Source of the DNA: Sphingobacterium thalpophilum | GTDB lineage: Bacteria > Bacteroidota > Bacteroidia > B-17B0 > Aurantibacillaceae | Reading direction: 5' to 3' | DNA length: 38,048 bases | Assembly (NCBI GenBank): GCA_943325195.2 | Contig: CALPON020000012.1 | Location: 1 to 38,048 of the forward strand | Part shown: positions 12,102-35,757 of the stretch, piece by piece | Position numbering within the stretch: the first letter of the stretch is position 1 | How the letters are laid out: the number at the start of each line of letters is the position of its first letter | The notes under the pieces: model-generated | The model's database searches: none | Told to the model about the DNA's origin: nothing | The model's input: only the letters and a program-made list of their open reading frames with translations | Position numbers and translations under genes: made by a program

Positions 12102-12210
12102 AGCGCTAAGTTAAATAAAGACAGTCAATTGACAGGTATGAAATTTGAAAGAATAATGTAAAGCGGTTTTGTTGGCGCGGAAAGTGAATTTGCTATACTT
12201 AGACTTTGCT

Positions 12211-15200
12211 ATGCATTTGAAAGCCAGTGTCTACCTCGTCATTTGCGGTGTTTTATTGGCGACTTCGTCTTTGTCCGGACAACAATTAATGTTTAAACAC
12301 ATTACGGAAGAGGATGGACTTAGCGCTAGTCATGTCAACTGCCTCCTCGAAGACGATCTTGGATTTTTGTGGTTCGGAACGCAGGATGGCCTCAATAAAT
12401 TCGATGGCTACCAGATACGGATCTTCCGGAATGAACCGGGCGATTCTGCAAGTATACCCAGCAGCTGCGTCAATACCGCGCTGCAGTTCAGTCACAATCT
12501 CATTATCTTGGGTACGCGGGAAGGCATTGTTTTTTTTAACCCAGTCACAGAAACTTTTTCAGGTCCTGCCCCGCATCAATTTCAACTTTCTTCACCTGTT
12601 CTTGCGCTTATCAAACTAAATGAAGAAACAGTTCTGGTTGGAAATGAAGCGGGACTTTTTGCACTAAATGTGCAAACAAGAAAAATCACCCAGGCTTATT
12701 TTGCACACGAACAAAAAGTAAAAGTGAATGCCCTGGCCAGGATCGAAAATCAAATTTACATTGCAACAGATGAGAAGGGCCTCTGGTGGTTACCAACGCC
12801 CACGCATATCCGGCATATCTGGTTTTCAGCCGATGATTTACCTCAGGAAGTCCTCAACCTTGGTGCACTGCGGTCCATCACAGCAATTGGTTATTATGGA
12901 GGTAAAATATATCTCGGCACCCGCTTGGCCGGCGTTTATAAGACTTCTCTGAAGCATGAGATTCTTGCACGCATTAAAACGGGGGTTCCAGCCACCGATG
13001 CGATACATGACTTTGTATTCCAAAATAACAGACTCTTTGCCGCCACTGACGGCGGCCTGGTGGTTCATCAGCTTCTTAATTCGCAGTTCCGCCTCTTCAG
13101 CAGAACGGAGGACCCCCTGTCATTAAATGCCCGGATCTGCACTGCTATTCTCAAGGATAAGCAAAACAACCTCTGGATCGGCACCAATACAGGAGGCGTG
13201 AATATTTCCTTTTTTCGCTCTCAAAAATTCCAGCAAAATCTCGAAACCCTCGAAAACAAATCCCAAAACAGCTATTGTTTTGCGGAACCACAAAAAGATA
13301 TCATGCTAATTGGGACGGAAAGCGGCCTTCTAGAATTAAATCTAAAAAGTGGAAGAAAAAAAACATATAACCTGCCAAAAAAATCCACCATACTTTGTCT
13401 CTACGCGCAAAACGAAGAGAATATCTGGATTGGAACAAAGGGACAGGGATTACTTTTACTGGAGCGAAGCACCGGGAAATGGAAGTCCTTGCTGGACCCA
13501 CTAATTGCAGGAACAATTACCGACCTGAAAAAAAATGGGCCCTCTGTTCTGGCGGCGTCAATGGGAGACGGGCTTTTTAATATTGACCCAATGACAAAAG
13601 ATTACCAGCAGTACATGGAAACCGAAGGCCTGCTCAATAACAATTTAAACACCATTTTTATTGATAACAAGAAGAGACTCTGGTTAGGTACCAATGACCA
13701 GGGCATGCTCCGTTACGTCCTGCCTTTAAAGCGCCATCTGAATCCCGACAAAGTATTTAAAAACAGCGGTAAACCAGCACAAATAGCCTCTAATATGGTG
13801 CTTTCAATTATTTAGGATCGGAACGGAACAATCTGGGCAGCTACCTCGGCAGGACTAAGCCGACTGCTGCCTGGCGACACTTTTCAGAATTATCACATGA
13901 AGGACGGATTAGCGAATACTTTTGTCTGCGCTCTTCTGAAAGATAGTCTTGGCGAGATTTGGGCTAGCAGCAATGGCGGTCTAATTCGCTTTGATCCCAG
14001 CAGGCCTCCAACTGAAGTCAGTTTCAGGAATTACAGTATGAAAGACGGACTGCAAAACTCAGAGTACAATCGCGGGGCCGCCATGGTGAGGGAAAATGGG
14101 ACCATGATTTTCGGGGGACCACATGGTTTTAATATTTTTCGGCCCACACAGATAAAAGATAATCTTCATTGCCCTGAAGTGGTTCTACTTTCTTATAAGC
14201 GTGGAGGCAAAGACGTCATTACTGATTCCGTGATAACCTACAAACGATTACTCACGCTGGGGCCGAAAGAAAATTTTCTGCAATTCGAAGTGGCTGCACT
14301 TGATTTTACAGACCCCTCGAAAAATAAATTCCGATACCTCCTAGAAGGATTCGATGCAGACTGGTCGGAACCGACTAGTATTCGGTATGTTTCCTATAAC
14401 GACTTGCCTGGGGGCACCTATCTTTTTAAAGTAAAAGCTGCGAATATTGTTGGCGCGTGGAATGAAAAAGCCATGCAGCTAAAAATTATTGTAGTGCCGC
14501 CATTCTGGAAAACCAAAACATTTTATTTACTAGTGATTATTCTTATCCTCTGTTTCTTCTATTTCTACACCTATTTCCGGACACGCGTCTTACTGCGCGA
14601 AAACAGACTTCTGGAGCAGCGCGTGTGTGAAAGAACAAAAGAGTTGGAAGAAAAAAACAGAGACATCACCAGTAGTATCGAATACGCGCGGCGCATCCAG
14701 GAAGCCATTCTGCCTTCTCGCGATTATATTTTTAATCGCCTTAATAACGCTTTTATCCTCTATCAGCCTAAAGATATTGTTAGTGGCGATTTTTACTGGT
14801 TTGCAGAACAAAATGGCATCCACGTTTTTGCAGTTGTGGACTGCACAGGACATGGCGTCCCCGGCGCTTTTATGAGTATGATTGGCCATAATTTGTTACA
14901 TCAGATTGTCGGTGAAAAAAGAATCACAGAACCAGGTGAAATACTGGATCACTTGCATGTTGGGATACAACTGACTTTGCGTCAGGGGCGAAATGAAGTG
15001 CAGACGAACGATGGCATGGATGTCAGTATCATCTGCCTGCACCGGCAGGGAAAAATTAAGTGGGCTGGCGCAAATCGTCCCTTATTAATTATTGACCCCA
15101 GCGGTGAAGTGCAAAGAATTGAAGGCGACAAATTTCCACTCGGTGGGGTACAATTTCAAAAAGAACGACACTTTAGTACCCATGAGATTGTAGTGGAGAG

Positions 15201-15417
15201 GGGAAGCATGGCTTATCTATTTTCTGATGGCTATGCTGATCAGTTTGGCGGACTCAAGGGAAAAAAATTTATGTTGCGCCGTTTTCACGCCTTGCTGGGT
15301 GACATTCACCTGATGAGTGCGGAAGAGCAGCAGCAAGCACTGCGACAGAATTTTGAGGATTGGAGACAAAACCATGAACAAGTTGATGACGTGCTCATTG
15401 TTGGAATACAGCTCTGA
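12211..15417 (+). pseudogene. Propeller/Y_Y_Y sensor with PP2C (SpoIIE) phosphatase output, interrupted by an in-frame TAG
   Basis: Read straight through, the frame is 1068 codons with one stop, TAG at 13813-13815 (codon 535). The sequence on both sides is continuous: LSII before and DRNGTIWAATSAGL after, exactly as in a two-component-regulator propeller repeat (usually EDxxGxxWxxT). Domains: signal peptide 1 to about 24, two-propeller repeats to about 660, Y_Y_Y domain to about 760, transmembrane segment 771-789, coiled coil to about 840, and a PP2C/SpoIIE phosphatase from about 850 with the SGDF, VDCTGHG, FSDGY and DDV metal-site motifs. I start at 12211 because a signal peptide begins there. 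With normal termination only the periplasmic first half is made. A restart at 13897 would give a form without a signal peptide. It could be a true nonsense mutation, a base-call error, or readthrough. Probable partner of SiaB/SiaC downstream. Confidence 0.85.
13813..13815 (+). other. In-frame amber codon within the sensor phosphatase gene
   Basis: ATT ATT TAG GAT CGG in the continuous frame. A one-base change from GAG (Glu, the usual residue here), CAG or AAG would explain it. TAG serves as an ordinary stop at sppA and the SCO1 gene in this window, so general recoding of TAG is unlikely. Confidence 0.9.
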
Positions 15418-16875: not shown

Positions 16876-17256
16876 ATGGAAAAATACTCGATCGAAGGCA
16901 CGCCAAAAACACCTAGCATTCAATTTGATTTGAATGGCGGTATTCTGGAGGTTAAAGGACGGTCCATTCCTGAAAATTCCATCGAATTTTACAAGCCACT
17001 GGTTGACGCATTGGATAAATATGCTAGCAGCGCAAAACCTGCTACCACTGTCAATGTGCAATTGGAATATTTCAACACCTCCTCTTCTAAATGTATTCTC
17101 GACGTCTTCAAAAAACTCGAAAGCATCAACAAGAGCGGAAGCGCAGTGACAATCAACTGGCATTATGAAGAAGATGATGAGGATATGCTGGAAGCTGGTG
17201 AAGACTACCAAGCCATCATTAATGTGCCTTTCAAAATGATCATGGTGAACGATTAA
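16876..17256 (+). CDS. SiaC-family regulatory phosphoprotein (DUF1987)
   Basis: 126 residues, the usual length. It contains the family signature [19 protein letters not shown] at 64-82. Thr68 falls in NTSSSK, at the same residue number as the Thr68 that SiaB phosphorylates in Pseudomonas SiaC, so it is the likely phospho-acceptor. Downstream are an [14 protein letters not shown] acidic segment and a hydrophobic end. In Pseudomonas, unphosphorylated SiaC activates the diguanylate cyclase SiaD; no GGDEF protein is encoded in this window, so the target here is unknown. It is the last gene of the signalling block, with a strong terminator 19 bp after the stop. Confidence 0.88.
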
Positions 17257-17274
17257 ATTTTTAACATTCTCTAG

Positions 17275-17301
17275 AACCCTGCCTTCGGCGGGGTTTTTTT
17301 A
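17275..17301 (+). terminator. Rho-independent terminator after the siaC-like gene
   Basis: A 9-bp stem with one G-U pair (AACCCTGCC with GGCGGGGTT), a TTC loop and a run of T residues. It insulates the signalling block from the aldolase gene. Confidence 0.92.
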
Positions 17302-17302
17302 T

Positions 17303-17310
17303 TATCTTTG
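17303..17310 (+). promoter_or_regulatory. -7 element (TATCTTTG) for the aldolase gene
   Basis: Exact TAnnTTTG match, 22 nt before the ATG, directly after the terminator. I see no clear TTTG at -33, because that position falls in the terminator hairpin. Confidence 0.5.
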
Positions 17311-17332
17311 TTACCCTTTAAAAAAACGAATT

Positions 17333-18388
17333 ATGCCAGTTAATATCCCTGATCTATTAGGCGCCAATGCTAAGAGCTTGCTAGAACATACCTGCCAGAC
17401 CATTTCGAAAGAACACATCCATCTGCCTGGGCATGATTTTGTAGATCGTATTTTTGCACAAACGAACAGAAGTCCGCAGGTTCTACGCAGTCTCCAGCAG
17501 TTGTATAATACAGGGCGCCTGGCAGGCACTGGTTACATGAGTATCTTACCGGTCGATCAGGGAATTGAGCACAGTGCCGGTGCCAGTTTTGCGCCAAATC
17601 CAATTTATTTTGACAGTGAAAATATCGTGAAACTAGCCATTGAAGGGGGTTGCAATGCAGTGGCTTCGACCTATGGCGTGCTGGCTTCTGTTGCCCGCAA
17701 ATACGCGCATAGAATTCCCTTCATTGTGAAAATAAATCATAATGAATTCCTGAGCTATCCAAATAAATTTGATCAGATCATGTTCGGTTCCGTTGAAGAA
17801 GCCTGGAACATGGGTGCCGTCGCAGTTGGTGCTACCATCTATTTCGGGTCGCCAGAGTCCGGCCGCCAGATCGTGGAAGTGGCACAGGCTTTCGAACGGG
17901 CTCATGAATTAGGAATGGCTACCATCCTCTGGTGCTATACAAGGAATAATGCGTTTAAAAAAGACGGAGTCGACTATCACACAGCCGCTGATTTGTCTTC
18001 CCAAGCCAATCATCTTGGTGTAACGATTCAGGCAGATATTATCAAGCAAAAAATGTCTGACAAAAATGGGGGCTACACCGCCATCAATTTTGGAAAGACG
18101 CATGCAAAAGTATATTCCGAACTGACCACCGATCACCCAATCGATCTTTGCCGGTATCAGGTGGCCAATTGCTACATGGGCCGTATGGGACTCATTAACA
18201 GTGGCGGCGAAAGTAAAGGCGCTACCGACCTGCAAGAAGCAGTCACTACCGCAGTGGTAAATAAAAGAGCAGGGGGACAAGGATTAATCAGCGGACGGAA
18301 GGCTTTTCAAAAACCAATGAACGAAGGCGTAGCCTTGTTAAATGCTGTTCAGGATGTATACCTGGATAAAACAATCAACATTGCCTGA
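17333..18388 (+). CDS. fbaB: Class I fructose-bisphosphate aldolase (DhnA/FbaB type)
   Basis: Cleaves fructose 1,6-bisphosphate to dihydroxyacetone phosphate and glyceraldehyde 3-phosphate (and the reverse) through a Schiff base, in the cytoplasm. 351 residues, matching the long DhnA-type enzymes. Visible features are [13 protein letters not shown] at 71-83, [17 protein letters not shown] at 165-173, and the segment ADIIKQK (Lys238/Lys240) that holds the catalytic Lys in the archaeal-type family. The C-terminal [11 protein letters not shown] is the phosphate-binding end. It has its own promoter. accD follows after 63 bp on the same strand with no terminator between, so partial co-transcription is possible. 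Confidence 0.93.
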
Positions 18389-18451
18389 TAAGGCCGCCAG
18401 AGTCAGAATAACGCATTCATCATTCAGGATTTTTAATATAGAATTTCAATA

Positions 18452-19297
18452 ATGGGTTGGTTTAAACGTTTAAAAGAAGGCATTACCACTTCTACTAATG
18501 ACAAGAAAGAGACCCCTGAAGGTCTTTGGTACAAATGTCCGTCCTGCAAAAAGATACATACCGTACAAGATCATGCTGGCTATAAATATGTTTGCTCAGA
18601 CTGCGGCTATCATGAAAAAATTGGAAGCAAAGAATATTTCGAAATTATCTTTGACAACAATCAGTTTACAGAACTGCATGAAAATCTCGTCAGTGGCGAT
18701 CCTCTTGAATTTTCCGACACGAAAAAATATACCGACCGTCTCGCCGATACCATCCGCAAAACAAATCTGAAAGATGCACTGCGAAGTGCTTACGGACAAG
18801 TAAACGGAAATGAACTGGTGATCTGCTGCATGGACTTTTCATTTATTGGCGGCAGTATGGGCAGCGTGGTGGGTGAAAAAATCGCGCGCGCAATCGACTT
18901 TTGCCTGAAAACTAAAAGTCCTCTGCTTATTATCTCCAAATCAGGGGGAGCTCGTATGATGGAAGCCGCATTTTCACTTATGCAAATGGCTAAAACATCT
19001 GCCAAACTTAGCCAACTGGCCGAAGCAAAAATTCCCTATATCTCCTTGCTGACTGATCCTACCACTGGTGGCGTTACTGCCAGCTATGCCATGCTGGGTG
19101 ATATGAATATTGCCGAACCCGGCTCCCTGATTGGATTTGCAGGACCACGGGTAGTGAAGGAGACCATTGGTAAAGACTTACCAAAAGGCTTTCAGACCGC
19201 TGAATTCGTGCTTGAACACGGATTTCTAGACAAGATTGTGCCCCGCACCGAATTGAAGGAAAAACTCGCACAATTACTGCAATTCTTCAAAAATTAA
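18452..19297 (+). CDS. accD: Acetyl-CoA carboxylase carboxyltransferase subunit beta
   Basis: Beta subunit of the carboxyltransferase that moves CO2 from biotin to acetyl-CoA to make malonyl-CoA, the first step in fatty acid synthesis; works with AccA. 281 residues. It has the N-terminal four-cysteine zinc finger (CPSC at 29-32 and CSDCG at 48-52). The carboxyltransferase core carries [20 protein letters not shown], then [18 protein letters not shown] and the oxyanion segment [13 protein letters not shown]. accA is not in the window. The ATG follows an AT-rich leader with no Shine-Dalgarno motif. Identification is firm. Confidence 0.96.
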
Positions 19298-19342: not shown

Positions 19343-19378
19343 TTGACAATCACTTAACCCAACTTTTCACTAACTTTA
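19343..19378 (+). promoter_or_regulatory. Candidate promoter for the sigma-factor operon
   Basis: TTG at 19343-19345 and TAACTTTA at 19371-19378, spaced by 25 nt (long for this promoter class), 28 nt before the ATG. A plausible but weak match. If the sigma factor regulates itself, a different sequence here could be its target. Confidence 0.3.
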
Positions 19379-19406
19379 ATCGTATTAGATAAAAGAGTAG
19401 AAAAGA

Positions 19407-19958
19407 ATGACCATCTCGCCGGAACTGATAGCGCTTTGTATAAAGCAAGACAGAAGGGCGGAGCATGAACTCTATAAGCGCTCCTATAGTTACTTAATGG
19501 GAATTTGCATGCGCTATGCCAGGGACAAGGATAGTGCATCTGCAGCTTTGAACATAGGCTTTATGAAGGTCCTCAAAAATCTGAGCAGCTACGATCAGCA
19601 AGTCCCCTTTAATGTCTGGACAAGAAAAATAATGGTCAACACGCTCATTGATGAGTATCGCAAGATAAAACGAGAACGTGAAAAAGTCGTTTATGTGGAA
19701 ACGTATTATGACAACTCGGACTTCTGTGAAGTGAACCAAGCCCTTGAAAGAATGGATTACAGACATCTACTCAACCAGATTAGTTTGCTGCCGGAAGCTA
19801 CCCGCAAAGTATTCAATCTGTTTGCAATTGATGGTTATGCGCATAAAGAAATTGCGGAGATGCTTGGTATCAGTCAAGGCACAAGCAAGTGGCATCTGAA
19901 TGCCGCACGTCAAAAGTTAAAAGAATATATTGAAAATAAAGTGTTTACAAGCGTATAA
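19407..19958 (+). CDS. ECF-type RNA polymerase sigma factor
   Basis: 183 residues with sigma-70 region 2 (about 20-90, including VPFNVWTRKIMVNTLIDEYRK split over the region 2.3-2.4 helix) and region 4 (about 125-175: LPEATRKVFNLFAIDGYAHKEIAE followed by MLGISQGTSKWHL, a helix-turn-helix that reads the -35 box). Regions 1.1 and 3 are absent, so it belongs to the ECF group. The gene is followed after 1 bp by an anti-sigma-like membrane protein, the standard arrangement for a membrane-controlled ECF factor. I recall that Bacteroides Das1, the partner of a dual-membrane anti-sigma, is in group ECF21; whether this protein falls there needs alignment. Confidence 0.92.
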   Translation: MTISPELIALCIKQDRRAEHELYKRSYSYLMGICMRYARDKDSASAALNIGFMKVLKNLSSYDQQVPFNVWTRKIMVNTLIDEYRKIKREREKVVYVETYYDNSDFCEVNQALERMDYRHLLNQISLLPEATRKVFNLFAIDGYAHKEIAEMLGISQGTSKWHLNAARQKLKEYIENKVFTSV

Positions 19959-19959
19959 A

Positions 19960-21375
19960 ATGAACTTCGAAGACAATTTTGACAAAATTATAAGACGAAA
20001 AGCGGAAGAGGCTGAATTTCCTTATGAGGAAAGCAATTGGGATAAACTGGCCACTCTGCGCGGGGATCAGCCAGCAGCAAGAGTCGTAAAAAATTCATGG
20101 AAAAATTTCCTGCTGCCCGCTGCCGCACTGCTCATTGTGGGAGGACTTTTCCTTTCCTGGTATTTCTCCCCAATACAACGGACAGGTGCTGCCTTTTCTC
20201 TGCCGGAATCACCATTGCCTGCCGCTTCTGAGCAAAGTTTCAAAGAAATTTCTATCCTGCCGGTCCCTCATTCTGAAGCACCCGCCGCGCCAGCGACGAT
20301 GGCTCTGCATCCGTTAATTAAGGATAAGAATCATCGAACTGGCCCTTCAATCTCTCAATTGACGCATGTTAGCGAACTTCTCCCTGCAAGCCTTGTGCCC
20401 ACTGCAGCGGAATTCGACTCCAATGAACCTCTTAAAGTTCATGTAGAACAAACGCCTAATCAAACACCAAGTCAACTACCTCTTCAGAACGACACGGGGT
20501 ACCACTTTATAACTGGACATGCCGTTCAGCCTGAATTGCCTGAGCCACCCTTGTCGCCGTCATCGGCTGTTCCGCCCATTCGTAATGAAATAGTTTTACC
20601 GTTGCAGGAACGCCCCCTTTCTGAAAATCCACTGACTTTTCAATGGTTAGCTAGCAAACAAGCTATACTTCAGTATCAGGTGGACGACAGAGAAGTGATT
20701 CCGAAAATTATGCCCCTGCTGAGAGAATCAGAAGACTACGTCTCAAAAAGTAAAAACTTTACCTATTCTGCTTATGCCGGTGTGCATTATGGTCTTGGCT
20801 GGAGCGGCGTGACCAGCGGCAGCAAAGAAGGAGCGGGTATCAATTATTTTGGGGGTGTCGACTTTCATTACGCCTTGAACAAAAAAATAAATCTCAGCGC
20901 TGGATTACAATATTATAATTTTTCAAACATCCTGAATCCTTATTATACCGCGGAGAAAAGAGAATACGGCTTTGGTTACACCCAGGCTTTCACTTCTGTG
21001 ACAACCGACCAGTTAATGTATTTGGCCATACCACTAAAAGCAGGATTTGAGATTACGCCAATCATGCGCGCTGGACTCGGCATCAATAGCGCCTATCTCC
21101 TTGCTGCCCATACCCGTGTAGATACTTATGGAGTAGCGGATGGAATGCGGGCAGAAGTCAGTTCCACCGGAAGTAAAACGATTTATGAAGGTACCCGCAG
21201 CTTGAATCTCATGGGGACTGCTTTTCTGGAAATCCGATTAACGGATTATTTTTCCGCATTTTCAGAGCTACAATATGGCTTTACCGATCTTTTTAAAAAT
21301 TACAAACACAGTGACAAACGTCAGAACAGTAGCGGCCTTCGCTTAGGACTGAACTATTATTTTGGAAAAAAATAA
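19960..21375 (+). CDS. Dual-membrane-spanning anti-sigma-like protein with C-terminal beta-barrel
   Basis: 471 residues from the ATG at 19960. An in-frame upstream ATG at 19930 lies inside the sigma gene and adds only non-conserved residues. Layout: short N-terminal cytoplasmic segment with an NWDKL motif (residues 1-47), one transmembrane helix (50-69), a Pro/Ala/Ser-rich linker of about 195 residues with no fold visible, then from about 265 to the end an alternating-strand barrel domain like small outer-membrane proteins (AYAGVHYGLGWSG, then a closing GLRLGLNYYFGKK). There is no cleavable signal peptide. This matches the Dma family described in Bacteroides thetaiotaomicron, whose members hold an ECF factor and reach the outer membrane. 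It lies 1 bp after the sigma gene and 1 bp before a lipoprotein gene. Confidence 0.82.
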   Translation: MNFEDNFDKIIRRKAEEAEFPYEESNWDKLATLRGDQPAARVVKNSWKNFLLPAAALLIVGGLFLSWYFSPIQRTGAAFSLPESPLPAASEQSFKEISILPVPHSEAPAAPATMALHPLIKDKNHRTGPSISQLTHVSELLPASLVPTAAEFDSNEPLKVHVEQTPNQTPSQLPLQNDTGYHFITGHAVQPELPEPPLSPSSAVPPIRNEIVLPLQERPLSENPLTFQWLASKQAILQYQVDDREVIPKIMPLLRESEDYVSKSKNFTYSAYAGVHYGLGWSGVTSGSKEGAGINYFGGVDFHYALNKKINLSAGLQYYNFSNILNPYYTAEKREYGFGYTQAFTSVTTDQLMYLAIPLKAGFEITPIMRAGLGINSAYLLAAHTRVDTYGVADGMRAEVSSTGSKTIYEGTRSLNLMGTAFLEIRLTDYFSAFSELQYGFTDLFKNYKHSDKRQNSSGLRLGLNYYFGKK

Positions 21376-21376
21376 A

Positions 21377-22486
21377 ATGAAAACAATACAATTACTAGGC
21401 TTTGGCCTCCTTCTTTTAATAGGCGCATGTCAGAAAAAGACAGTGTTACCGGAAAGCGATGTGAGTGATCCGGTCTTCTATCTCGAGGCAAAAGTGAATG
21501 GAAATCCCATTTCTATTCAGGCCGGAGAAGCTGGCTATTATATGCATTCGTCTGTCTCTCAGGATTCCAATGCTATTTACATTTTTAAAGGCGATCTAAA
21601 CGGAACCTGCGCTAGCACCTGCGGCTATTCTTTGTCTATCGCGATTAATGATTATAAAGTGTCGCAGCGCGGGGGACCGCTGATGGTGGACAGTGCGCTC
21701 AAACCAGGTACTTATAATCTTCTGAACAAGTCAGCTTATCCCAGCACGCAGGTCCTGAGTTTTACTCCCCAAGAAGCTTATTCTTCAGCCAACGCCTATA
21801 GCTGGAAAGTAAGGGATCAGAAAGGAGAAGTTTTTAGTTCGAATTCTTATTCCTTTGCCACAAGCCTTAAATTGGCAACGCAATACACGGTCAGTTATCA
21901 GTTTGAAGACGCAAGCGGCGCTTGTTCCGGTGAACATAGCAATGTATACAAACCCGGCAGTACTTTCCGCGCATGGATGAACCTGAGCAAGAATGGCAAA
22001 CAAGTGAGTCTTTCTGCCGTGACCGATGCGCCTGGTAACTACACTTATCTGTGGGACTATGGAGATGGCAGCACTGGCGTTGGCAAGGAGGTTCAGCACA
22101 GCTATCCAGATAAGGAGAAGTACAAAATAAAATTGACGGTGACTGATGCAGCGAAGAATGTTTCTGTCTGCTTTTATGAAGTTAATACTAATCCCGGCGG
22201 CTGCGAAGCGAATTTTATCGCCAACTTTACGCCAGTCGATTACTCAAAAATCTTGCGGAACATTGCATTTGTCCTCCGCGACCCCTCGGGTGCCGTATAC
22301 TGCTCGCAAGATGCTCCACTGCTGGGTGGAAGTGTAGTGGAGATTCTCTCCGTCGAAGACTTTCAGAGAAATGCCGCTGGCCAGCCGACAAAGAAAATTA
22401 AAATGCGCTTTAGTTGCCGTCTCAAAGGGGATGCGGGGGAAGTGCTAATAGAAGAGGCAAATGCTGTAATGGCGGTTGCTTACTGA
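21377..22486 (+). CDS. PKD-domain lipoprotein of the sigma/anti-sigma operon
   Basis: 369 residues from the ATG at 21377, with lipobox LLIGAC (Cys near 18). The central part has a PKD-type Ig fold: YLWDYGDGSTGVGKEVQHSY then YKIKLTVTDA. The outer parts are beta-rich with several Cys pairs. Exported and anchored, probably in the outer membrane. It starts 1 bp after the anti-sigma-like gene, so it is the third gene of that operon. It might be a partner of the barrel domain or a target of the sigma factor; neither can be told from sequence. The stop overlaps the convergent thioredoxin-like gene by 7 bp. Confidence 0.82.
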   Translation: MKTIQLLGFGLLLLIGACQKKTVLPESDVSDPVFYLEAKVNGNPISIQAGEAGYYMHSSVSQDSNAIYIFKGDLNGTCASTCGYSLSIAINDYKVSQRGGPLMVDSALKPGTYNLLNKSAYPSTQVLSFTPQEAYSSANAYSWKVRDQKGEVFSSNSYSFATSLKLATQYTVSYQFEDASGACSGEHSNVYKPGSTFRAWMNLSKNGKQVSLSAVTDAPGNYTYLWDYGDGSTGVGKEVQHSYPDKEKYKIKLTVTDAAKNVSVCFYEVNTNPGGCEANFIANFTPVDYSKILRNIAFVLRDPSGAVYCSQDAPLLGGSVVEILSVEDFQRNAAGQPTKKIKMRFSCRLKGDAGEVLIEEANAVMAVAY

Positions 22487-22971
22487 GGGACCGATTCAAA
22501 TTTTTGTATGGCAGTGCGCAGTTGCTCACTACTCAATTTTTTATCCAAGAGCACCTGGCGCGGTCCTTTTTTTACAAGGGTTGCGGGAATACTGCCACTC
22601 CAGTCCGGAGAAATCTGATCGATGTACACATTTCCATTGACTTCATCGAGCAGGACGCAACTTGACTGAATGCCCTTGCTTTTAAGCGCACTGTTCACCT
22701 GATTTTTTTTATCCCGGAAATCCAGACTCACCAATAATAATTTTATTTTTCCGGTTTTATTTTCCATCCCAACACTATCAATCGCTTGCAACTCTTCCAT
22801 ACAAGGCTTGCACCAGGTTGCCCAGAAATTGACAATGTAAGTCGTGTCCGAAGCGGAAATCCGCTTCATCAAATCCGGCACTTTATAGATACCGCTGAGT
22901 TTCTGTGCAGACAAACTCAGTGTTGTTGCAATGAGCAGAATACTAATCCGAATGCCTTTTTTTGTAATCAT
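22480..22971 (-). CDS. Exported thioredoxin-like protein (TlpA/ResA type)
   Basis: 163 residues with a signal peptide (MITKKGIRIS plus a hydrophobic stretch ending LSAQ) and a thioredoxin fold. The active site is WCKPC at 53-57 in an NFWATWCKPCMEEL context, and the cis-proline is in SGSIPATLV. TlpA/ResA proteins reduce disulfides in the periplasm, often for cytochrome c or copper-centre maturation. It begins 29 bp inside the 3' end of the SCO1 gene, so the two are in one transcript. Pairing with SCO1 suggests a role in supplying electrons for Cu-site assembly. Ends overlap the PKD lipoprotein gene by 7 bp. Confidence 0.9.
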   Translation of the reverse strand: MITKKGIRISILLIATTLSLSAQKLSGIYKVPDLMKRISASDTTYIVNFWATWCKPCMEELQAIDSVGMENKTGKIKLLLVSLDFRDKKNQVNSALKSKGIQSSCVLLDEVNGNVYIDQISPDWSGSIPATLVKKGPRQVLLDKKLSSEQLRTAIQKFESVPQ

Positions 22972-23611
22972 ATTCTTGTCTTAGTAAATCAATATCCTTC
23001 ATCATTCGTACAACTTCAACACTGTCTGTGCCATCATAATAACCGCGGATATGTCGTTCTTTATCTATCAATGCAAAATTTTGTGTGTGAATAAAATCAT
23101 CTTCACCGCCGTTACCTTCATTTGCGTCTAGCAAATAACCGCGGCGAGCTACCGCATACAAATCAGTTTTCGATCCGGTTAAGAAAAGCCATTTTTTATC
23201 TGTTACCCCCTGTCGGTCTGCATACGACTTCAAAATCGGCACACTGTCCGTTTCGGGATCAACCGTGTGGGAGAGAATCAGCACGTCTTTTTCCTTCTGT
23301 ATGTTTACATAAACCCACTTCAGGTTATTGTTCATGATGGGACAAATGCTGTGACAGGTAGTGAAAAAAAACTCAGCAACATAAATCTTATCTTTCACCG
23401 CTTCCTGGTCGGTGTAAGCGCCATACTGATTCAAAAAATGAAAGACAGGAATCTGATGGTAAAGGGTGTCATTTATTTTGAGTGCATTCTTGGGACCGAA
23501 GTAGGGAAGTTGGTGCAGTGGTTTATTATCTTTTTGATTTTTTAAGAACCAAATTATAAAAAGCAGGGGAATAAAAATAAGGAGCCAATAATAATTACTT
23601 TTACTTTGCAT
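22943..23611 (-). CDS. SCO1/SenC family copper-binding protein
   Basis: 222 residues with an N-terminal membrane anchor (about 8-22) and a thioredoxin-like domain. The copper-binding set is complete: Cys86 and Cys90 in FTTCHSICP and His175 in FIHTQNF. SCO proteins deliver copper to the CuA site of cytochrome c oxidase or handle its thiols. No oxidase genes are in the window. The stop is TAG and lies within the downstream TlpA-like gene (29-bp overlap). The start is 30 bp from the divergent K+ channel gene. Family assignment is firm. Confidence 0.92.
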   Translation of the reverse strand: MQSKSNYYWLLIFIPLLFIIWFLKNQKDNKPLHQLPYFGPKNALKINDTLYHQIPVFHFLNQYGAYTDQEAVKDKIYVAEFFFTTCHSICPIMNNNLKWVYVNIQKEKDVLILSHTVDPETDSVPILKSYADRQGVTDKKWLFLTGSKTDLYAVARRGYLLDANEGNGGEDDFIHTQNFALIDKERHIRGYYDGTDSVEVVRMMKDIDLLRQEYDYKKRHSD

Positions 23612-23641
23612 AGTCCCGCAAAATTACAGACAAATCCGCCA

Positions 23642-24598
23642 ATGGCAATTTTTAAATCGAAAAAGGAGAATCTGCGTGAACTTGGTTTTGGTTCCCGCAC
23701 TTATCAGAAAAACGTCCGTTTTATAACACCTTCCGGTGATATCAATGTCAAGCGATCTGGTTTGCGTGGGCTGAAGAACATCGATATTTATCATTATTTA
23801 ACCACTATGTCTGCCTGGCGTCTCAGCATCTACATTGCGGCTGGCTATATCTCCATAAATCTCATTTTTGGTGGAATATATTACTGGATCGGACCGGAGA
23901 ATTTTTATGGCATTAATAGTACTAGCCCCGCACAGCAGTTTCTCAGCCTCTTTTTTTTCAGTGCACAGACCATCACCACACTTGGTTATGGTCACCTACA
24001 TCCGGTCAGTAATGGTGCTAGCGTAGCCGCCGCTGTTGAGTCCTTGTTGGGTTTACTTACCTTTGCCATTGCTACAGGGATTATTTTCGGACGATTTTCA
24101 AGGACCAAAGATCAGGTGATGTACAGTGATAATTTGTTGATTGCGCCTTATGGCCAGATTACGGCAGTGATGTTTCGGATTGCAAATAAAAAGCAATACG
24201 AATTAATCGAAGCAGAGGCTACGGTAAATCTAACAATGACCAATCCAGAAACAAACAAACGTGAATTTCATAATCTCGACCTGGAGATAAATAAAATTAG
24301 TTTTTTTCCTTTAAGCTGGACCATTGTGCACCCTATTGATGAAAAGAGTCCATTATTTGGCCTGCAACTCGCCGATCTGGAAGCCATGGATGTGGAAGTA
24401 CTCATCCTTATCAAAGCAATTAGTGATACATTCGGTCAGACGGTCTATTCACGTGCATCCTACAAACCTGAGCAGATCATTGCTGATGCAAGCTTTAGAC
24501 CGATAGTGCCGGAATTAAGCAAAGATGGAAAGTTGAAAATCAGCGTCCGTGATATTCACATGTACGATCAGATTAGGTCTTCACTGAAGACTGACTGA
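23642..24598 (+). CDS. Inward-rectifier-type potassium channel (KirBac family)
   Basis: 318 residues from the ATG at 23642. An in-frame ATG at 23606 would overlap the SCO1 start and adds no conserved sequence. Order of parts: N-terminal VRFITPSGDINVKRSGL (typical Kir lead-in), slide helix, TM1 (about 60-82), pore helix with selectivity filter TLGYGH (113-118), TM2 (about 128-151), and a C-terminal cytoplasmic Ig-like domain from about 160. The filter has Leu where KirBac1.1 has Val, and His where most have Asp. Passes K+ across the inner membrane. The 3' end overlaps lysA by 31 bp on the opposite strand. Confidence 0.92.
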   Translation: MAIFKSKKENLRELGFGSRTYQKNVRFITPSGDINVKRSGLRGLKNIDIYHYLTTMSAWRLSIYIAAGYISINLIFGGIYYWIGPENFYGINSTSPAQQFLSLFFFSAQTITTLGYGHLHPVSNGASVAAAVESLLGLLTFAIATGIIFGRFSRTKDQVMYSDNLLIAPYGQITAVMFRIANKKQYELIEAEATVNLTMTNPETNKREFHNLDLEINKISFFPLSWTIVHPIDEKSPLFGLQLADLEAMDVEVLILIKAISDTFGQTVYSRASYKPEQIIADASFRPIVPELSKDGKLKISVRDIHMYDQIRSSLKTD

Positions 24599-31092: not shown

Positions 31093-32745
<1,653 letters not shown>

Positions 32746-32768
32746 TGCTGCTTCTTTCCTAATAGATG

Positions 32769-32798
32769 AAGGGTGGTCCACGGATCACCCTTTTTTTT
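32769..32798 (+). terminator. Rho-independent terminator after groEL
   Basis: A stem of about 8-9 bp with one G-U pair (AAGGGTGGTC with GATCACCCTT) and a run of eight T residues, separating groESL from the isomerase genes. Confidence 0.92.
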
Positions 32799-32824
32799 GC
32801 CTAAAATTTATGACCCAAAGACCT

Positions 32825-32832
32825 TATCTTTG
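32825..32832 (+). promoter_or_regulatory. -7 element (TATCTTTG) for the isomerase genes, apparently leaderless
   Basis: Exact TAnnTTTG, ending 5 nt before the GTG start at 32838. Transcription would start at about the start codon. The nearest upstream TTG lies 25 nt before it, a long spacing. Confidence 0.5.
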
Positions 32833-32837
32833 ACGCG

Positions 32838-33692
32838 GTGAAAATTATAGGCATCTTTTTCCTTTTGCTGATTCTTTGCTTCTCTTCCTGCGGGACCAGA
32901 GAAAAGGAAGTCTTTGTGCAAAAAAAAGGATTTTATTACCGGCTGATTTCTTTTTCGGATGAGGGCCACAGACCATCCTCTGCCAAATACATACACCTGC
33001 GGGCCAGTTTTAAAACGCAGAGGGACAGTGTTTTTTGGGACAGTTTTAATAACCTGAATGACCTGTTTATCTTACAGGCAGATTCTCTGGCGGATGGCAT
33101 TCTGACTTCTCAGGTAAGCCGCCATGTGCCCGGAGATAGTTTTTGCCTCGCCATTCCGGTCCCCGCTTTTATGAATGAAGTGTACCATACTAGTGAGGTT
33201 CCACTTTTTCTTAAAAAGGATTCCCTTGTCAGGGTTTATCTGAAATTAGCCAATGTATTTGATAACGCGCATTTATTGCCCGGCCAAAAGGAATTGGAGC
33301 TGCAGGAATATCAGCAGATTGAAGCTTATCTTGGGGGAGCAGAGGCAAGCGAAAAAGCACGTGATGCTAGCGGTTTTTTCTGGATCGAAAAACCTGAAAA
33401 TAGCAGTGATCTGATTACCGGAGGACATACAGTTATACTGAGCCTGCAAGGTAGTTTTCTGAGTGGTAGGCCGCTGGATAAGGTGCCTCTACGGCAGGAA
33501 TTTGTGTACGGAAATCCCGATCAGGTTTTGCCAGGTATAAATAATGCAATTGCGCGTTTGGGAGAAGGACAAACTGCAAAAATTATCTTACCTTCACACC
33601 TTGCGTTTGGTGAGTTTGGCAGTTCCAATGGTGCGGTCCCTCCCTTTACGCCACTAATCTATAGGATTAGGATAGGAACTAAAAAACTATAA
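32838..33692 (+). CDS. FKBP-type peptidyl-prolyl isomerase lipoprotein (GldI-like)
   Basis: 284 residues from a GTG start. Lipobox LCFSSC gives lipidated Cys18, so it is probably at the outer membrane facing the periplasm. The N-terminal part (about 30-145) looks like a degenerate FKBP domain lacking the active-site pattern. The C-terminal part (about 185-284) keeps the FKBP core: LPGINNAIARLGEGQTAKIILPSHLAFGEFG and the closing PPFTPLIYRIRI. FKBPs speed cis-trans isomerisation of proline bonds. GldI of Flavobacterium is a lipoprotein of this type needed for gliding, but orthology is not shown here. First of three isomerase genes. Confidence 0.88.
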   Translation: MKIIGIFFLLLILCFSSCGTREKEVFVQKKGFYYRLISFSDEGHRPSSAKYIHLRASFKTQRDSVFWDSFNNLNDLFILQADSLADGILTSQVSRHVPGDSFCLAIPVPAFMNEVYHTSEVPLFLKKDSLVRVYLKLANVFDNAHLLPGQKELELQEYQQIEAYLGGAEASEKARDASGFFWIEKPENSSDLITGGHTVILSLQGSFLSGRPLDKVPLRQEFVYGNPDQVLPGINNAIARLGEGQTAKIILPSHLAFGEFGSSNGAVPPFTPLIYRIRIGTKKL

Positions 33693-33716
33693 AAAATAAA
33701 TACAACAAAAAAAGCA

Positions 33717-34652
33717 ATGAAGAAAATTTCATTTTTAGCGGTGAGCGCTATCACTTTGATCGGAGTTTCCTGCAGTGATTCACAATTCGATGGTTACAAG
33801 CGTGACAAGAGTGGATTGCATTACAAATTTTTTACTGAAAATCCAGACGCGAAGAAAGTAGAAAAAGGCGACGGTATTGTCGTGCGGTATATCATCTCCA
33901 AGGAAAGTAATGACTCCGTGATTGTGGATTCGAAAATGGTTAGCAATGATGGAACCGGTTTTGCACAGTTTCAGATGACGGAATCTTCCTTTAAAGGAAG
34001 TTTTGAAGATGGACTGATGATGATGGCAGCTGGCGATAGTGCAGCTTTTATTATTTCAGCAGATTCTTTTTATCTGAAAACCAATCAGGCGACCTCCCTG
34101 CCTCCTGGCTTTAAACCTGGTGATTTTGTAAAGGGTGTTTTTGCCATCAAAGAAGTGCGTTCAAAAGAAAAAATGGAAGAACTGCGCAAAAAGCAGGAAT
34201 CAGACCGCGCCGAATACACGAAAGAGATGGAGGCGAAAGAACGCCCAAGTATTGATAAATATCTCAGTGATAACAGTATTACCGTCAAGCCGACTGCAAC
34301 CGGTCTGTACTTTATCGAGACAAAAAAAGGTACCGGTGGATCTCCAAAAGCAACGGATATTGTTACTGTGCATTACAAAGGGACTTTATTGGATGGCACT
34401 ACTTTCGACAGCAGCATTGAACGCGGTGAGCCACTTGTGTATCCGCTCAACCAACTGGTGTCAGGATGGATCGAAGGCCTGCAAATGATGAAAAAGGGTG
34501 GTAAAGCCAAACTGGTGGTGCCTTCTGCGCTGGGTTACGGACCGCAAGGCAATCGCGGCATTCCACCGTTCTCTCCCCTTGTTTTTGAACTTGAACTGAT
34601 TGATTTTAAAGCGGGTGAGCCGGCAGGTGCAGCTATGCAGCCGGGGCAGTAA
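33717..34652 (+). CDS. FKBP-type peptidyl-prolyl isomerase lipoprotein with two FKBP-like domains
   Basis: 311 residues with lipobox LIGVSC (Cys19). Residues about 30-150 form a degenerate FKBP-like domain (GDGIVVRYIISKES, then SFEDGLMMMAAGDSAAFII). A charged helical linker follows (about 155-195). The C-terminal canonical FKBP domain (about 200-300) has TDIVTVHYKGTLLDGTTFDSS, then VSGWIEGLQMMKKGGKAKLVVPS and YGPQGNRGIPPFSPLVFELELIDF. The key aromatic and Asp residues of the FKBP site are present. A Pro/Gln-rich tail ends the protein. It lies 24 bp after the previous FKBP gene, on the same strand. Confidence 0.92.
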   Translation: MKKISFLAVSAITLIGVSCSDSQFDGYKRDKSGLHYKFFTENPDAKKVEKGDGIVVRYIISKESNDSVIVDSKMVSNDGTGFAQFQMTESSFKGSFEDGLMMMAAGDSAAFIISADSFYLKTNQATSLPPGFKPGDFVKGVFAIKEVRSKEKMEELRKKQESDRAEYTKEMEAKERPSIDKYLSDNSITVKPTATGLYFIETKKGTGGSPKATDIVTVHYKGTLLDGTTFDSSIERGEPLVYPLNQLVSGWIEGLQMMKKGGKAKLVVPSALGYGPQGNRGIPPFSPLVFELELIDFKAGEPAGAAMQPGQ

Positions 34653-34695
34653 ATTCTGGCAGTATTATTGTTAAGCAATTACCAAAAAAATAGAT

Positions 34696-35757
34696 ATGAG
34701 AAAATTACTGGTTATGATCAGCGCCTTCTCACTCCTCGCAACAGGAGCTGTGGCGCAAAAAAAAGAAAAACAAAAACTGAATAAAATGGATAAAGAATTC
34801 CTTTCAAAACAGGCCGATGGACTGTACGCAAAGTTTGAAACAAATAAAGGGGACATCTACACGGTTCTCGAAATGCAAAAAACGCCAATGACCGTGGCCA
34901 ATTTCGTCGGTCTAGCGGAAGGTACTGTTACAAATACGGCAAAAGCTGCCGGAGTGCCGTATTATGATGGACTCGTGTTTCACCGTGTTATTCCTAACTT
35001 CATGATTCAAGGTGGTTGTCCGCAAGGCACTGGCACCGGAAATCCCGGCTACTCTTTCCCTGATGAAATTGATGCTACGTTGAAACATACTGGGCCCGGT
35101 ATTCTCAGCATGGCCAATGCTGGTCCCGGCACAAATGGTTCACAGTTCTTTATCACACACGTTGAAACGCCTTGGTTAGATGGTAAACACACTGTTTTTG
35201 GACACGTTATTCAGGGACAGGATGTTGTAAACAAAATTGCAGGTAGCGATTCACTAAAAAAGTTGGTGATCCTTCGTAAAGGTAAAGACGCTGAAGCCTT
35301 TGATGCGGCTAAAGTTTTTGAATTTGAAAAAGGGAACGTGGGTGCAAAAGCTGCGGAAAAAGCAAAAGCTGATGAAGCTGCCCGCGCCTTGGCTAACGCA
35401 GAAGCTCTTAAACGTTTCGAAAAAGCAAACATAACTGCTTCAGGACTTAAATACATCATCGAAAAAGAAGGTACTGGCGATAGTCCAAAAGCCAGTGATC
35501 AGGTAACGGTTTTCTACAAAGGAACGTTCACCGACGGTAAATTATTCGATAGCAACTTCGGAAAAGACCCAATAACTTTCGGTCTCACGCAGGTGATTCC
35601 AGGTTGGACAGAAGGTCTGCAACTCATGAAGCCAGGAGGAAAAGCAGTTTTCTACATTCCTTACAAACTGGCTTATGGCGAAAACGGTCACCCTTCAGGA
35701 GTTATTCCTCCAAAAAGTGATCTCGTTTTCGAGGTAGAATTAATCAAGGTCAACTAA
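34696..35757 (+). CDS. Exported cyclophilin-FKBP fusion (dual-family prolyl isomerase)
   Basis: 353 residues with a signal peptide (about 1-20, ending GAVAQ). The cyclophilin domain (about 40-195) has [13 protein letters not shown] (catalytic Arg), [11 protein letters not shown] and [15 protein letters not shown]. An Ala/Lys-rich helical linker follows (about 215-245). The FKBP domain (about 250-353) has [49 protein letters not shown] and [15 protein letters not shown]. Both active-site sets look intact. Cyclophilin-first fusions are the CFBP arrangement of dual-family immunophilins. The product is exported to the periplasm; whether anchored is unclear because there is no lipobox Cys. Ends the isomerase cluster. 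Confidence 0.92.

Follow-up and report, generated by a model that had tools for sequence, protein, structure and literature searches.

How might the state of the outer membrane be made known to a sigma factor in the cytoplasm, when a single predicted protein appears to cross both membranes and is followed by a lipoprotein gene? The window (the whole stretch of 38,048 nucleotides that was analysed) raises this question in a cassette of three genes on the + strand, which encode an ECF sigma factor, a barrel protein and a PKD lipoprotein in that order. Its host is an uncultured environmental member of the Bacteroidota, whose 2.9 Mb draft genome (98% complete) holds one copy of the cassette. The features are as follows.

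19359–19384, + strand: promoter-like element, CCAACTTTT-N13-CGTA, a perfect match, 22 bp upstream of the sigma start codon
19407–19958, + strand: ECF sigma factor, 183 aa (Sigma70 r2 and r4_2 in Pfam; TIGR02937, E 4e-23)
19960–21375, + strand: Dma-type dual membrane-spanning anti-sigma-like protein, 471 aa (AlphaFold2 model; homology to Bacteroides Dma)
19960–20097, + strand: its predicted cytoplasmic N-terminal segment, residues 1–46, two helices, invariant W27 (model, alignment, hhalign)
20098–20163, + strand: its inner-membrane helix, residues 47–68 (AlphaFold2 model, hydropathy)
20164–20754, + strand: its disordered Pro/Leu/Ser-rich periplasmic tether, residues 69–265 (pLDDT mostly <60; poorly conserved)
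20755–21372, + strand: its C-terminal outer-membrane barrel, residues 266–471 (pLDDT mostly >90; OmpA/NspA fold)
21377–22486, + strand: PKD lipoprotein, 369 aa, lipobox IGA-C18 (Pfam PKD, lipobox, model)
21452–21772, + strand: its conserved N-terminal core, residues 26–132 (profile ends kept in PKD-less homologues)
21776–22195, + strand: its two beta-sandwich (PKD-like) domains, residues 134–273, inserted in the core (PKD_4, model)
22199–22483, + strand: its conserved C-terminal core, residues 275–369 (kept in PKD-less homologues)

With the ATG at 19960 as its true start, the second gene is separated from each neighbour by 1 bp; the open reading frames and their coordinates agree with an earlier reading of the letters alone (the sequence-only reading), which had placed the three genes 1 bp apart. 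A fourth operon gene is absent in the window, and a convergent TlpA-like gene lies downstream instead. This TlpA-like thioredoxin gene and a SCO1/SenC gene, both convergent to the cassette, are followed by a match to an inward rectifier potassium channel (22480–24598), an arrangement kept in several relatives. On the other side, the cassette stands behind fructose-bisphosphate aldolase and accD (16876–19297 of the window) in most fetched members of the genus (L061, L063, L064, L066, L068, L069, L071–L073, L075 and L080), a stable chromosomal position.

What kind of protein does the second gene encode? To answer this, the full-length chain was modelled with AlphaFold2 from an alignment of the sequences of 72 relatives. 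The model has helices at residues 3–17 and 24–35, a transmembrane helix at 47–68, some 195 disordered residues (about 74 to 262, pLDDT mostly <60) and strands spanning 267–468 with pLDDT mostly >90. W27, ahead of the transmembrane helix, is invariant in 72 of 72 sequences, and the relatives show a hydropathy peak near residue 48. In structure comparisons the barrel superposes on OmpA with Z 17.4 (170 residues, rmsd 3.5) and on NspA with Z 16.4 (155 residues, rmsd 3.1); the solved structures that it matches are 8-stranded outer-membrane barrels. The Pfam model OMP_b-brl_2 stays below its cut-off in the window protein and is present in 31 of the 72 family members. Barrel length is near-constant across the family (sd 9), while the tether varies from 131 to 356 aa (median 204) with poor sequence conservation. 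Across the family it is rich in S, N, T and K; that of the window protein favours P, L and S. The 46 residues that precede the helix suggest that the protein has no cleavable signal peptide. No FecR domain was found in it by Pfam at E up to 0.1. Thus the layout proposed from the letters, namely a cytoplasmic segment, one helix, about 195 disordered residues and a barrel, is seen in the full-length model, and the C-terminal part, on whose being a barrel that proposal turned, is an OmpA-like barrel at 266–468.

In published descriptions, Dma proteins begin with an anti-sigma domain, which a helix and a long disordered tether connect to a barrel at the C-terminus; they adjoin an ECF21 sigma factor and occur in Bacteroidota only (PMC13088901). 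Is the window protein one of them? In Bacteroides-type genomes, with Bacteroides ihuae as the control genome, we located the dma2 locus through its reported neighbours, DUF4943, DUF4858 and a nitronate monooxygenase-like gene, which gave the Das2/Dma2-matching loci L195, L196 and L247–L252. A profile of the window family recovers the Dma2 proteins of these genomes with E values between 1e-11 and 5e-8, and Dma1-type proteins with values as low as 5e-13. By hhalign (reversed controls ≤2%), the whole middle protein matches Bacteroides Dma at 98% (E 2e-13) and its N-terminal part at 95% (E 4e-8). Residues 1–75, helix included, match Dma2 at 95% and Dma1 at 93% (reversed control 0.9%), and the barrel matches the barrels of both at 96% (E 2e-9); the cytoplasmic segment without the helix is weaker, at 64% for Dma2 and 26% for Dma1. 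The ECF profile of the window family recovers Das-type factors at E about 1e-30. In the sigma tree, which has few outgroups, the Das factors stand on a long branch apart from the window group. We conclude that the middle protein very probably is, and works like, a Dma-type anti-sigma factor, its binding of the sigma factor being a prediction. The profile homology in the N-terminal part and the barrel bears out the assignment to the Dma type made in the sequence-only reading. One Bacteroides-type genome also encodes a 518-aa Dma-like protein (L254, 4361–6510) that is more distant than Dma1 and Dma2 and has a sigma gene of its own beside it.

The closest known counterpart is Das2/Dma2 of B. thetaiotaomicron (BT_1559/BT_1558; PMC13088901). 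There too the genes for an ECF factor, a Dma protein and a lipoprotein share order and strand, and the Dma protein has the N-terminal segment, single helix, disordered tether and C-terminal barrel, with profile homology in the N-terminal part and the barrel. However, its third gene encodes a lipoprotein of the DUF4943 type, to which the PKD lipoprotein shows no detectable relation, its promoter sequences are other ones, its sigma factors are separated from the window group by the long branch, and its host belongs to a PUL-rich gut lineage, whereas the family of the window's host is without SusD. Das1/Dma1 with NigD1 of the same species shares the Dma architecture and a lipoprotein gene adjoining the sigma gene. 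In the Bacteroides-type loci read, where the NigD-like gene was identified by position and reported neighbourhood, that gene is divergent from the sigma gene, and its product shares no sequence relation with the PKD lipoprotein. In FecI–FecR–FecA, likewise, an outer-membrane signal reaches an ECF factor, but by way of three separate proteins and a TonB-dependent transducer; the window system would use one chain through both membranes, without a FecR domain.

Is the lipoprotein a regular member of the cassette? In the host's own family the order sigma, barrel, lipoprotein is found in all 40 fetched loci bar one, which is cut by a contig end. A scan with the sigma factor as sole criterion gave 80 loci, in MAGs filed as Bacteroidia, Sphingobacteriaceae, Saprospiraceae, Flavobacteriales, Cryomorphaceae and Owenweeksia. 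Gene 2 is a barrel protein in 78 of the 78 readable ones, and the lipoprotein comes next in 68 of the 71 with a complete gene 2 (66 complete, 2 contig-cut). The other three (L151, L155, L156) have sigma and barrel without the lipoprotein, which is therefore not strictly required. When loci from other families of the class were picked on the lipoprotein only, sigma and barrel stood ahead of it in 16 of 16 sampled (L199–L214). Recurrence of the trio in this order across own-family and sigma-selected loci is not due to chance. The Dma type is thus present away from gut Bacteroides, as the sequence-only reading had proposed, and the PKD lipoprotein that it had added as a partner is a conserved member of the operon. 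Its distribution is clearly patchy: in a phylum-wide draw of 296 genomes the full-length lipoprotein was found in the host's own genome only, and in a class-wide draw, made up almost entirely of high-quality genomes, in about 50 of 295, from 16 families. Barrel and lipoprotein distances are correlated at r 0.87, and at 0.64 with sigma held constant; between sigma and lipoprotein only 0.16 is left with the barrel held constant. This co-divergence fits contact between barrel and lipoprotein but is not proof of it, as it could also stem from rates shared by outer-membrane proteins.

What is this lipoprotein, and on which side of the outer membrane does it sit? PKD_4 matches residues 207–259 (E 3e-12), and residues 195–273, the part to which the structure search was confined, superpose on PrtV PKD1 with Z 12.7 (rmsd 1.6, 79 residues); the first of the two putative beta-sandwich domains is read from model strands only. 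Three Saprospiraceae homologues of 210–214 aa (L148, L161, L164) lack the PKD part, yet the profile matches them at both its ends. The PKD domains are accordingly an insert that the lipoprotein core can do without. No Pfam family matched the C-terminal core. Sequence kinship with NigD was rejected (hhalign at most 0.6%), as was that with DUF4943 (BT_1557), for which there was no Pfam match and, between mature parts, at most 0.3% by hhalign; a first weak DUF4943 match was to the signal peptide. Surface lipoproteins of Bacteroidetes carry an acidic export signal (LES), with acidic residues after a polar or basic one at +2 to +6 (PMC5080379). In the window protein these positions read QKKTV, which is basic and not an LES, though the LES of the host lineage may differ. 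Across the lipoprotein family the acidic fraction at +2 to +6 is 0.14 and the basic fraction 0.42, with LES-like positions in 2 of 38; some Flavobacteriales members have KDDDG or KEDDG. As guides to the local signal, the 16 background lipoproteins were too few, and SusD does not occur in the lineage. Since the acidic export signal is missing, surface exposure is not supported, nor is the proposal that the lipoprotein receives a signal at the cell surface. Most likely it lies at the outer membrane with the barrel, on the periplasmic face.

Promoters of ECF factors with AAC and CGTA elements are known in other bacteria. The element of the window fits CCAAC-N17-CGTA, and CCAAC-N16..18-CGTA occurs in 33 of 81 upstream regions, whereas 20 rounds of shuffling gave 1 at most; by its sequence, 19359–19384 is a probable autoregulated ECF promoter. 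A second paralogue group has CCCAAC and TGTA at equal spacing, which suggests separate specificities. In the second group of ECF–Dma–lipoprotein loci of relatives (L081–L100, L123–L157), many sigma promoters have TGTA in place of CGTA, and gene 4 encodes a long PKD protein with a T9SS sorting domain. Some relatives have a copy of the element in the gap that separates the lipoprotein gene from the next one. The gene in this position encodes T9SS-sorted PKD proteins in one group and small unknown proteins in the other, where one locus has a TonB-dependent receptor after it. How far does the regulon extend? The strict pattern gives about 2 to 3 sites per genome, and the backward control about 1 to 2. 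With counts so near the control, the pattern is reliable for the operon, and for the gene that follows the lipoprotein where relatives have a site there, but not for a wider regulon. A second site in the host genome (L285, 2101–2126) touches the start of a predicted secreted-protein reading frame and was not counted.

None of 61 genomes of the host's family has SusD (positive control Bacteroides ihuae). In this lineage, therefore, the target cannot be polysaccharide loci of the SusC/SusD type, and the Dma-type switch must serve something other than such utilization loci. A role in vesicle formation is not supported here for the window trio.

The trio is thus a Dma-type switch that has a promoter of its own and whose lipoprotein partner, nearly invariant, differs from those known. 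Its recurrence in many related lineages makes the lipoprotein a likely fixture of this recently described kind of envelope sensor. We regard it as likely that it acts as an envelope-spanning sigma/anti-sigma switch whose partner is an outer-membrane lipoprotein. The N-terminal segment of the 471-aa protein would keep the ECF factor at the inner membrane, and the helix, the tether of about 195 residues and the barrel would link the held sigma factor directly to the outer membrane. Beside the barrel, the lipoprotein would set or sense its state. The signal, we infer, would be a change at the outer membrane (a ligand, damage, or failed assembly of the barrel–lipoprotein pair), on which the sigma factor would be released by proteolysis of tether or helix, or by a conformational or mechanical change. 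Once free, it would drive its own operon through the CCAAC-N17-CGTA element, and in some relatives the gene that follows as well. The architecture, the Dma homology, the conservation of the cassette and the promoter motif are results of computation; sigma binding, contact of the lipoprotein with the barrel, the kind of signal and the release step are predictions. The modest similarity of the cytoplasmic segment taken by itself (64%, 26%) counts against this reading, as do the loci with sigma and barrel and no lipoprotein.

Could the protein be no anti-sigma factor but an ordinary barrel, its first 70 residues just a signal peptide or anchor of unusual length, whose gene shares a transcript with that of an ECF factor unconnected with it? 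Sigma binding is a prediction, and the segment's likeness to the Dma1 profile is modest. But W27 ahead of the helix is invariant, the N-terminal part aligns with its Bacteroides Dma counterpart, the sigma gene lies upstream in every locus that is not contig-cut, and a long variable tether would be unexpected in an ordinary barrel; this alternative is very improbable. Another possibility is that the tether serves as a ruler, or as a check on assembly, with the trio sensing the spacing or attachment of the two membranes or failed barrel insertion and not a ligand. All tethers are at least 131 aa and poorly conserved beside a barrel of near-constant length. At 0.36 nm per residue, an extended chain of 131 aa could span about 47 nm and one of 197 aa about 71 nm, and by polymer rules of thumb an extended tether would exceed the periplasm while a relaxed chain would fall short. 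On the other hand, lengths of 131 to 356 aa encode no fixed distance and the PKD-type domains of the lipoprotein suggest a binding function, so that we hold a ruler to be unlikely.

A slightly better, though still minor, chance belongs to a sigma/anti-sigma pair as proposed in which the PKD lipoprotein is output only, as NigD1 is downstream of Das1. NigD1 is induced in a dma1 mutant and required for its vesicle phenotype, and BT_1557 rises by 6 log2 units in a dma2 mutant with vesicles unaffected (PMC13088901). That lipoprotein genes neighbouring Dma1 and Dma2 are reported as induced outputs (PMC13088901) also weighs against the switch with a lipoprotein partner, and the window's lipoprotein gene belongs to the operon for which the promoter motif predicts autoregulation. 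Yet in many families the third gene constantly codes for the lipoprotein core, while gene 4, with its own motif copy in some relatives, varies, and the co-divergence is specific to barrel and lipoprotein. Returning to the envelope-spanning switch, we tentatively extend it, at somewhat less than an even chance, to a single outer-membrane receptor made of lipoprotein core and Dma barrel, with the lipoprotein as input subunit and the PKD part as an exchangeable binding module: a PUL-independent three-part sensor in several Bacteroidia lineages. A lipoprotein that is near-constant in one Dma branch offers a concrete candidate for the input side of Dma systems, and the conserved promoter a ready reporter.

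Two further groups of genes were observed in the window. At 31111–35757 a chaperonin-family gene (Cpn60/TCP1 match) is followed by three consecutive peptidyl-prolyl isomerase genes: FKBP, FKBP and a cyclophilin–FKBP fusion. At 12169–15417 a Reg_prop/PorZ-like propeller protein adjoins a Y_Y_Y–SpoIIE protein, and the pair looks like one two-gene sensor.
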